From NCBI GenBank assembly GCA_012516935.1, contig JAAYVZ010000031.1:1-33695 (forward strand): a stretch of DNA of 33,695 nucleotides, in the 5' to 3' direction. The position numbers and the translations under genes were made by a program. Below the pieces are notes generated by a model. That model was not told where the DNA came from. It ran no database searches and saw only the letters and a list, made by a program, of their open reading frames with translations. The DNA is from Holophagae bacterium (lineage in GTDB: Bacteria > Acidobacteriota > Thermoanaerobaculia > Thermoanaerobaculales > Thermoanaerobaculaceae). Each line of letters starts with the position of its first letter. Within the stretch, counting starts at the first letter, position 1. This document shows, piece by piece, positions 21,989 to 26,385 of this stretch.

Positions 21989-23088
21989 CAGAGGCTCCTC
22001 ACCGTGCGGGCGGTGGCCAGCGAGCCGACGACGGTCGCGTAAACGACCAGCCCTACGACCTGCTGCCACCACATCTCGGGGCCCGCACCCTTGAGCACGA
22101 TCGCCCGCAGCGCCACCAGGAAGTAGCGCGCCGGCACGATGTGGCTGATCCACTGCAACGCCTCGGGCATCGAGGAGATCGGGAAAATGAAGCCGGACAG
22201 GAGCATGGTCGGGAGCATCGAGGACAGCAGGCTGACCTGGAACGCAACCTGCTGGGTCTCGGCCAGAGTCGAGATGAGCACGCCCCAGCCCAGACCACCG
22301 AGGAGGTAGAGCACCGTCACGACCGCCAGCCAGCCGAGCGAGCCACGGATCGGCACGTCGAACAGCGCCCATGCCAGCGTCAGCGAGGCGGCCGCCGCCG
22401 CCGAGGCGATCACGAGGTAAGGTAGGGTCTTGCCGATCAGAAGCTCGAGCGCCATCAGGGGCGTGGCGCGCAGCGACTCGAGGGTGCCCCGCTCCTTCTC
22501 CCGCACCACCGCGAGGGCGGTGGCAATCACGGCGGTGATCATGAGGATGAATGCCACGAGGCCAGGCACCAAAAAACGTGCCGACGCAAGGTCGGGGTTG
22601 TACCAGACGAGCGGCGCCGCGAGCGCTGGCCCGGTGCCGCTGACACGCACCAGTGGCGTCACGCTGGCGACGATCTGCTGGGCATACGCCAGCACCGTAT
22701 TGGCGGTCTGGGAGTCGGAGCCGTCGAGGACGAGCTGAAGCGTCGTGAAGCGGTGAGCGGCGAGGTCCGCGCCGTAACCGGAGGGCACGACGAGGGCCAC
22801 CTGGGCGTGACCGGTGTCGAGCCACCGGTCCAGCTCGCGAACGTCACGGGTGGTGCCGATATGGTCGAAGTGGCCGCTCGAGAGGAACGCCCGAGCCACC
22901 TCACGGGCCGCGCGGCTGCCGTCCTGGTCGACGATGACGAGGCGGATGTGCTCGACGTCGAACGAAAGGGCGTACCCGTAGATCAGGACCAGTGCCACCG
23001 GCATGAGGACGAGCGTGAAGACGACCCGCCAGTCGCGGCGGAGCTGGAGTAGCTCTTTGACGGCCACGGCCAGGGTGCGGCGGATCAT
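21988..23088 (-). CDS. ABC-2 type transporter permease (YbhR/YbhS-like), proximal copy
   Basis: A 366-residue inner-membrane permease with the same layout as its neighbour: first helix VVFTLVLMPVALVLIYGYAL, a large extracytoplasmic region (about 45-165), then helices such as LVPGLVAFILMITAVIATALAVV and WLAVVTVLYLLGGLGWGVLIS. The family signature is GTLESLRATPLMALELLIGKTLPYL, and the C-terminal LSGFIFPISSMPEALQWISHIVPARYFLVALRAIVLKG is the same motif as in the other permease. It starts with ATG 23088, overlapping the stop of the second ATPase gene in ATGA, and ends overlapping the start of the distal permease by one base. Two related but non-identical permeases indicate a heterodimeric channel. 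Substrates of YbhFSR-type exporters are drugs or amphipathic compounds, but this cannot be fixed here. Confidence 0.9.
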   Translation of the reverse strand: MIRRTLAVAVKELLQLRRDWRVVFTLVLMPVALVLIYGYALSFDVEHIRLVIVDQDGSRAAREVARAFLSSGHFDHIGTTRDVRELDRWLDTGHAQVALVVPSGYGADLAAHRFTTLQLVLDGSDSQTANTVLAYAQQIVASVTPLVRVSGTGPALAAPLVWYNPDLASARFLVPGLVAFILMITAVIATALAVVREKERGTLESLRATPLMALELLIGKTLPYLVIASAAAAASLTLAWALFDVPIRGSLGWLAVVTVLYLLGGLGWGVLISTLAETQQVAFQVSLLSSMLPTMLLSGFIFPISSMPEALQWISHIVPARYFLVALRAIVLKGAGPEMWWQQVVGLVVYATVVGSLATARTVRSL

Positions 23089-24029
23089 GCCTGCTCCCTC
23101 CCGGTCGAGGGTCGGGAGATGACGTGGATGAAGACGTCCTCGAGCGAAGGGTCGATGGCGGTGACGGTGGCAGGAGCGTGGCCGGCTGCCTCGAGTGCGG
23201 CGACCAGGCCGCTGGCCGCTCCCGGGGCGGCCAGGATCGCGTGGAGCAGGTCGCCGAACAGAGCGACCTCGTGGACCGCCGGGAGACCCTCGAGGTGGCG
23301 CATCGCCGCGGCGGGGCGGGGACAGGCGATCTCGACCACGGTTCCGGACTCGAAGCGAGCTTTCAGCCGCGGTACGGTGTCGAGCGCCAGCAACTTGCCG
23401 GCGTGCATCAGCGCGACACGCCCACAACGCTCCGCCTCGTCCATGTAGTGGGTGGTGACGAACACCGTCGTGCCGGCGGCCGCCAGGGTGTCGATGAGGT
23501 CCCAGAAGCGGCGCCTGGCCTCCGGGTCGACCCCGCCGGTGGGTTCATCGAGGAACACGATCGGCGGCTCGTGGAGCAACGCACAGCCGAGGGCGAGCCG
23601 CTGGCGGAACCCGACCGGCAGCTCGCGCACGACCGTGCCCCGGCGCGAGGCGAGCGCACCGACCTCGATCGCCCACGCCACGCGCTCGCGCAGCCGCGCG
23701 CCGCCCAGCCCGTAGGCACCGCCCCAGAACGCCAGATTCTCATCCACGGTGAGGTCGGCATAGAGTGAGAAGCGCTGCGACATGTAGCCGATGCGGCGCT
23801 TGATCTCGTGCGGCTGGGTGGCGACGTCGAAGCCCAACACCTCGCCGCTCCCGGAGGAGGGAGCGAGCAGGCCGCAGAGCATGCGGATCGTCGTCGTCTT
23901 GCCGGCGCCGTTGGAGCCGAGGAAGCCGAAGACCTCGCCTGTGCCCACCTCGAAGCTCACCCGATCCACGGCGCGGAAGGCGCCGAACCACCGGGAGAGC
24001 TCGACCGCGCGCACCGCCGGCTGACTCAT
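23085..24029 (-). CDS. ABC transporter ATPase 2 (YbhF C-terminal-half type)
   Basis: A 314-residue ATPase with Walker A GSNGAGKTT, Q-loop MSQRFSLYADLTVDENL and Walker B IVFLDEPTGGVDP with the catalytic glutamate. The H-loop histidine is present (VTTHYMDEAERC). The signature motif is degenerate: it reads LPVGFRQRLAL where LSGGQ-type motifs are usual. In E. coli YbhF, two ATPase halves are fused; this gene corresponds to its second half, where a similar signature change occurs. The C-terminal part (about 220-314) is a regulatory DUF4162-like tail with LEDVFIHVIS. It overlaps the TolC stop and the permease start, both in ATGA. It is expected to pair with ATPase 1, which has the opposite defects. 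Confidence 0.93.
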   Translation of the reverse strand: MSQPAVRAVELSRWFGAFRAVDRVSFEVGTGEVFGFLGSNGAGKTTTIRMLCGLLAPSSGSGEVLGFDVATQPHEIKRRIGYMSQRFSLYADLTVDENLAFWGGAYGLGGARLRERVAWAIEVGALASRRGTVVRELPVGFRQRLALGCALLHEPPIVFLDEPTGGVDPEARRRFWDLIDTLAAAGTTVFVTTHYMDEAERCGRVALMHAGKLLALDTVPRLKARFESGTVVEIACPRPAAAMRHLEGLPAVHEVALFGDLLHAILAAPGAASGLVAALEAAGHAPATVTAIDPSLEDVFIHVISRPSTGREQA

Positions 24030-25450: not shown

Positions 25451-26385
25451 CACGCTGCCTCCCCCGCGCTGGCGTCGCGCGTGAGATAAAGGAAGGTGTC
25501 CTCGAGGGTGGGTGGAATGACGCGGATGTCGAGCACCCTGACAGCGGCCGAAGCCAACGTGAGGCGGACCGACTCTTCGGCAGGCCGATCGGCGGAGAGC
25601 CAGACGTGGAGACGGGCCGCGAACGGCTGCACGTCCAGGACGTCGGGCGCCTGGCGGAGCGCCTCGACGGCGCGGCCGCGAGGCTCGGCCAGCACCTCTA
25701 CCACCGTCCCGTGCATGAGCGCGCGGGCTGCGGCCGGCGTAGCGTCAGCCAGCACGCGGCCGCGGTGCATGAGCACAACGCGTGAGCAGCGCTCGGCTTC
25801 ATCGAGATACGGTGTCGCCACGACCAGCGTGAGGCCCTCGGCGACCAGCCCGGCGAGCAGCTTCCAAAGCTCGCGGCGGGTGACCGGGTCGACGCCGGTG
25901 GTGGGCTCGTCGAGGACGAGGACCTGCGGCTCGTGCATCAGGCTGCACGCGAGTGCCAGCTTCTGCTTCATGCCGCCGGACAGGCGATCGGCTTGGCGGT
26001 CACGGAAGGCGGCGAGTCCGACCCGTTCGAGCAGCATCTCGCGTCGCGACCGCCAGCGCTGCACGCCGAGAAGGAGCGCGAAAAACTGCACGTTCTCGTT
26101 CACCGTGAGGTCGCCGTAAAGGGCGAACCTTTGCGCGAGATAGCCGAGTGAGTGGTGGAGCGCCCGCCGGTGTGCCCAGACGTCGTGGCCGAGGACGGTG
26201 ACGCTTCCGGCTGCTGCCCGCTGCAACCCGGCGATCACCCGCAGGGTCGAGGTCTTGCCCGCGCCGTCCGGGCCGATGAGCCCCACCACCTCGCCGCGCT
26301 CCACCGCCAGAGCGATGCTGTCCACTGCCGTCATCGTTCCGTATCTGACGGTCAGGCCGCGAACATCGATCAGCCGCTCGCTCAT
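25450..26385 (-). CDS. ABC transporter ATPase 1 (YbhF N-terminal-half type)
   Basis: A 311-residue ATPase. Walker A is GPDGAGKTS, the Q-loop region is YLAQRFALYGDLTVNEN, the signature is canonical LSGGMKQKLAL, and Walker B is VLVLDEPTTGVDP. The H-loop is altered: the usual TTHYxDEAE reads ATPYLDEAE, so the switch histidine is replaced by proline. In the dimer with ATPase 2, this gene supplies a good signature but a Walker/H set lacking the switch residue. This matches the first half of E. coli YbhF, where the histidine is likewise missing. It overlaps the adaptor stop in ATGA and the TolC start by one base. Confidence 0.93.
   Translation of the reverse strand: MSERLIDVRGLTVRYGTMTAVDSIALAVERGEVVGLIGPDGAGKTSTLRVIAGLQRAAAGSVTVLGHDVWAHRRALHHSLGYLAQRFALYGDLTVNENVQFFALLLGVQRWRSRREMLLERVGLAAFRDRQADRLSGGMKQKLALACSLMHEPQVLVLDEPTTGVDPVTRRELWKLLAGLVAEGLTLVVATPYLDEAERCSRVVLMHRGRVLADATPAAARALMHGTVVEVLAEPRGRAVEALRQAPDVLDVQPFAARLHVWLSADRPAEESVRLTLASAAVRVLDIRVIPPTLEDTFLYLTRDASAGEAA

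Follow-up and report, generated by a model that had tools for sequence, protein, structure and literature searches.

The YbhFSR exporter of Escherichia coli was reported to export tetracyclines and dyes (PMC7190983). Its genes lie with that of the regulator CecR (b0792-b0796) in the order cecR-ybhG-ybhF-ybhS-ybhR, which corresponds to a TetR regulator, an HlyD adaptor, the ATPases and two ABC-2 permeases. In YbhF both ATPase domains (NBDs) are on one chain, the N half with the motifs STSYLDEAE and LSGGM and the C half with TTHFMDEAE and LPLGF. The E. coli protein RbbA (YhiH; with YhhJ and YhiI) has two NBDs with the same asymmetry, VATAYMEEAE/LSGGM and ISTHFMNEAE/LPLGI, and has a permease domain fused on as well. 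According to papers on YbhF, its Walker, Q, D and switch motifs are conserved (PMC7190983, PMC9951867). A word search of PMC7190983 turned up nothing on a changed H-loop, on degeneracy or on asymmetry.

The window, that is, the whole stretch of 33,695 nucleotides of a Holophagae bacterium (Acidobacteriota) analysed here, contains an operon of the same kind. Its features, with those of the neighboring genes, are as follows.

27380..28054, minus strand: TetR-family regulator (PF00440), first gene of the operon, in the same place as cecR in E. coli by synteny
26382..27383, minus strand: HlyD-type periplasmic adaptor, YbhG-like, probable lipoprotein (PF13437, PF16576)
25450..26385, minus strand: NBD1 (ATPase 1), 311 aa (PF00005)
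26248-26274, minus strand: NBD1 Walker A, GPDGAGKTS
25969..25983, minus strand: NBD1 signature, canonical LSGGM, residues 135-139
25810..25812, minus strand: NBD1 H-loop Pro192 replacing His (ATPYLDEAE), codon CCG
24026..25453, minus strand: TolC-family outer-membrane channel, between both ATPase genes (PF02321; TIGR01844 under cut-off)
23085..24029, minus strand: NBD2 (ATPase 2), 314 aa (PF00005)
23607..23621, minus strand: NBD2 signature, degenerate LPVGF, residues 137-141
23448..23450, minus strand: NBD2 H-loop His194 (TTHYMDEAE), codon CAC
21988..23088, minus strand: ABC-2 permease 1, PermS, YbhS-like (PF12698)
20897..21988, minus strand: ABC-2 permease 2, PermR, YbhR-like (PF12698)
28965-30527, minus strand: EmrB-like MFS transporter of a second efflux operon
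30531-31760, minus strand: EmrA-like HlyD adaptor of the second efflux operon
31757-33280, minus strand: TolC of the second efflux operon
28184-28945, plus strand: cytidylate kinase-like protein (PF13189)

The adjoining genes of the operon, in the order TetR-HlyD-NBD1-TolC-NBD2-PermS-PermR, overlap by 4 bases, including tolC with both ATPase genes; PermS and PermR overlap by 1. The adaptor is probably a lipoprotein because of a LIGC box spotted by eye, and its match to NF002939 was under the family cut-off. A GTG start was listed for tolC, and an alternative start further in, ahead of the signal peptide, is possible. With an HlyD adaptor, two NBDs and two ABC-2 permeases, the locus has the gene content of the YbhFSR/RbbA type; it is an ordinary two-ATPase drug-exporter operon of the YbhFSR type and a normal member of the family. 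The two ATPases scored 235 and 272 bits with the RbbA model NF033858, under its cut-off of 1050 (E. coli RbbA itself scored 1597). The gene order agrees with that of the E. coli operon, but in E. coli the NBDs are fused and tolC is absent, whereas in the window the NBD genes are separate with tolC between them. Directly upstream on the same strand there is the second tripartite efflux operon (28965-33280), which has its own TolC, and the gene for the cytidylate kinase-like protein is divergent from the TetR regulator gene.

When the sequence was read again, the coordinates, strand and motifs given for both ATPases in the first-pass annotation were found to be exact, and the PF00005 scores of both were far over the cut-off. 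Two of the marks by which degenerate ATP sites are recognized were present, namely a deviating signature in NBD2 and the loss of the H-loop His in NBD1. The third mark, loss of the Walker B glutamate, was absent from both ATPases: Glu160 in NBD1 and Glu162 in NBD2 are retained. The Walker A Lys (in GSNGAGKTT in NBD2), the Q-loop Gln and the D-loop are likewise intact in both. Of the remaining ABC domains in a sample from this genome, all those scorable at both motifs carried the H-loop His (38/38) and had Ser as the second residue of the signature (38/38), so that both deviations are particular to the NBD1/NBD2 pair, and chance or a generally sloppy genome was rejected as their cause.

Our survey covered 127 NBD1/NBD2 pairs whose motifs were complete, mostly split genes, from about 20 phyla. 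They comprised relatives in the phylum of the window, found via NBD2, and named genomes of many other phyla, retrieved by the NBD1 patterns GPDGAGKT and LSGGMKQK. The invariance of the NBD1 signature (LSGGM, 127/127) was therefore partly selected in the latter set; it also holds in the set from the phylum of the window, which was retrieved through NBD2. The NBD1 H-loop and the whole of NBD2 were outside the retrieval patterns. At the H-loop position NBD1 had P in 76 pairs, A in 46, S in five and His in none, and NBD2 had His in all 127. The NBD2 signature was variable at position 2 (P 63, S 36, A 27, D 1) and position 3 (G 98, others 29) and nearly fixed at positions 1 and 4. On a tree from which the trait columns had been left out, parsimony gave 30 and 21 changes at positions 2 and 3 of the NBD2 signature, compared to a median of 17 for NBD2 columns, none at either of the same positions in NBD1, and one each at positions 1 and 4 of the NBD2 signature. 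The catalytic Glu was present in both NBDs of every pair (127/127). The Walker A Lys (127/127), Q-loop Gln and D-loop Asp were conserved in NBD1 across the pairs, where Walker A (GPDGAGKT), Q and Glu were invariant or nearly so. The Asp of this Walker A occurs in 126 of the 127 NBD1 sequences where NBD2 has Asn (127/127), which is possibly part of the same specialisation. In one NBD1 (L104:4726-5712), the catalytic Glu is followed by A rather than P (LDEA for LDEP); P is otherwise almost invariant at this position.

As judged from these motifs, the unevenness of the ATP sites belongs to the family as a whole, with YbhF and RbbA of E. coli among its carriers. The H-loop loss is the fixed lesion by the same comparison, and the signature loss is secondary. 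A primary loss of the signature was rejected, since LSGG is kept in 26 of the 127 NBD2 sequences and His in no NBD1. The same 26 pairs contradict the earlier idea that the two defects always come together, because in these the NBD1 His is lost and the NBD2 signature is intact.

The two-NBD exporters have a symmetric sister set in those related operons that contain only one NBD gene. Most of these 20 (L138, L141, L143, L240-L253, L255, L258 and L259) adjoin genes for HlyD and an ABC-2 permease, as in the window, and in HlyD-NBD-permease exporters of the same lineage, such as L240-L253, the NBD is 44-50% identical to NBD2 of the window. Unlike the window, they have one NBD and one permease gene, are presumably homodimeric, and carry the canonical LSGG and H-loop His in 20 of 20 cases. 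The difference in LSGG (20/20 vs 26/127) had a Fisher p of 2e-12, which is indicative only, as the sequences are related. In these two sets, which were of similar sequence diversity, LSGG switched between intact and lost 20 times among the two-NBD operons and not once among the single-NBD ones.

In the pairing put forward by the first-pass annotation, each ATP site combines the H-loop of one ATPase with the signature of the other. Its logic agrees with the survey in that the NBD1 LSGGM and the NBD2 His are invariant, and the NBD1 H-loop residue and the NBD2 signature vary. These elements sort exactly by heterodimer site, a pattern predicted for obligate heterodimers with one canonical and one weakened site, so that the pairing idea is well supported. 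To call the second site dead was an overstatement. Since every pair retains the Walker A Lys and the catalytic Glu of this site, ATP is likely bound there and slow hydrolysis is possible. On the basis of the motifs, the operon, the family-wide pattern and the contrast with single-NBD relatives, we consider it probable that the locus encodes a tripartite ABC-2 exporter of the YbhFSR type, whose ATPases would form an obligate heterodimer with one canonical hydrolysing site and a slow or non-hydrolysing site as clamp, and that this state was inherited. The canonical composite site would consist of NBD2 Walker A/B and His194 with the LSGGM of NBD1, and hydrolysis driving export would most likely take place there. 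The weakened site, NBD1 Walker A/B and Pro192 with the LPVGF of NBD2, may bind ATP with slow hydrolysis or none and act as a standing clamp. We assume that duplication of the NBD and the permease early in the family was followed by the loss of the NBD1 H-loop His, and that the opposite NBD2 signature then drifted in each lineage, perhaps furthest in forms like LPVGF and LPLGF.

It is possible, but in our opinion unlikely, that both sites hydrolyse ATP, the NBD1 Glu being enough without His by a general base mechanism, so that the asymmetry is one of sequence and not of function. The second site may hydrolyse because the NBD1 Glu is kept in every pair and LSGG in 26 of the NBD2 sequences; the conservation of NBD1 Walker A Lys, Q-loop Gln and D-loop Asp and the almost fixed positions 1 and 4 of the NBD2 signature fit this as well. 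However, the His is fixed wherever else it was scored (NBD2, single-NBD relatives and other domains of the genome) and never occurs in NBD1, and variation in the NBD2 signature is confined to systems that also have NBD1. An entirely inert second site, for which nucleotide binding is not needed, would suit the window, where that site has neither the H-loop His nor the signature Ser and Gly. We find this hardly credible, because the near invariance of Walker A, Q and Glu in NBD1 over 127 pairs would be needless in such a site. Separate homodimers, serving different permeases or conditions and with complementary motif losses only by coincidence, might be suspected from the separate ATPase genes with tolC between them and from the two different permeases. 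Nevertheless, an NBD1 homodimer would lack His in both of its sites and an NBD2 homodimer would have LPVGF in both, while the variable and invariant elements sort by heterodimer site, both ATPases are one chain in E. coli and several other lineages, and single-NBD systems remain canonical. The single-NBD contrast and the results on signature changes thus speak for heterodimers and against the formation of homodimers by either ATPase, which we regard as very unlikely.

The arrangement as an obligate heterodimer is also consistent with a structure model, that of a natural fused relative from Stenotrophomonas (L215) and not of the pair in the window. The AlphaFold model (pLDDT 84, pTM 0.74) aligned over both NBDs at once with ATP-bound ABCA1, ABCA4 and ABCA7 (473-533 residues, rmsd 3.8-4.3), which fits a head-to-tail NBD dimer. 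No YbhF chain was found in the PDB at E <= 1e-80, and a distant DNA search of plasmids gave partial matches only.

The first-pass annotation had described the locus as a split form of the E. coli fusion. The survey suggests the opposite emphasis, since the split state is common (112/127 pairs) and fusions like YbhF are the minority (15/127). That tolC lies between the ATPase genes is true of the locus (24026-25453) but not special, as the same arrangement was found in 47 of the 127 pairs, in the phylum of the window, Ignavibacteriota, Bacteroidota, Nitrospinota and Aminicenantes. On the tree, the fused state required about six changes in several separate places, and tolC between the NBD genes about seven. 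NBD1 and NBD2 formed separate groups, in each of which split and fused members were mixed, and NBD1 and NBD2 of the window fell in the lineages holding the N and C halves of YbhF. This was a quick tree with long outgroup rows, two of them misplaced, and a branch with a support of 94 separates the NBD2 group from the rest. YbhF would be better described as a fusion of what are usually two genes, although the direction is not proven by an unrooted tree. Splitting as a cause or correlate of the asymmetry was rejected, because the fused YbhF and RbbA share it; with the same asymmetry in E. coli while fused, splitting explains nothing.

The interesting part is not the locus itself but the asymmetry across the family, which bears on the open question of why many ABC exporters retain one weak ATP site. 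We incline to the view that the whole exporter family, YbhF and RbbA included, may represent an "H-loop-first" type of asymmetric ATPase, in which His is gone, Glu is kept and the opposite signature is drifting, with the single-NBD relatives as the symmetric start. The family supplies intermediates that lack His and retain Glu, and in which the opposite signature goes from LSGG to LAGG and LPGG and then to LPVG; its single-NBD relatives serve as a control. If this reading is true, the family would show successive natural stages in the degeneration of a site. Because the asymmetry is present in YbhF and RbbA of E. coli K-12, it is directly testable there. In the literature searched, asymmetry of YbhF or RbbA was nowhere reported; the search was thin on subscription journals and is thus weak evidence of novelty.

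Asymmetric ABC exporters as such are already known, and what may be new, and is unreported in the papers searched, is the combination of universal His loss, absent Glu loss and partial signature loss. Loss of the catalytic Glu has been termed the hallmark of degenerate sites (PMC7544095), and in human transporters the signature is changed in every degenerate site, with a changed Glu next most common (PMC7756269). In the asymmetric type I exporters that have been reviewed (PatAB, TM287/288, TAP, the ABCC family) the Walker B Glu is commonly changed (Asp in PatA), whereas the family of the window always keeps it; this family also differs in its transmembrane part, which is ABC-2, in the constant loss of His and in a signature that is sometimes intact. 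In PatAB, H543 of the consensus site is essential and Q521A in the degenerate loop merely lowers activity (PMC9541285), a precedent for the proposed hydrolysis at the NBD2 His/NBD1 LSGGM site with the other site as clamp. Yeast Pdr5, of the ABCG type, resembles the window in a non-catalytic site with the H-loop His changed to Tyr and a signature of LNVEQ (PMC7756269, PMC8421411). In Pdr5, however, two further residues are lost that the window keeps, the Lys of Walker A and the Glu of Walker B.
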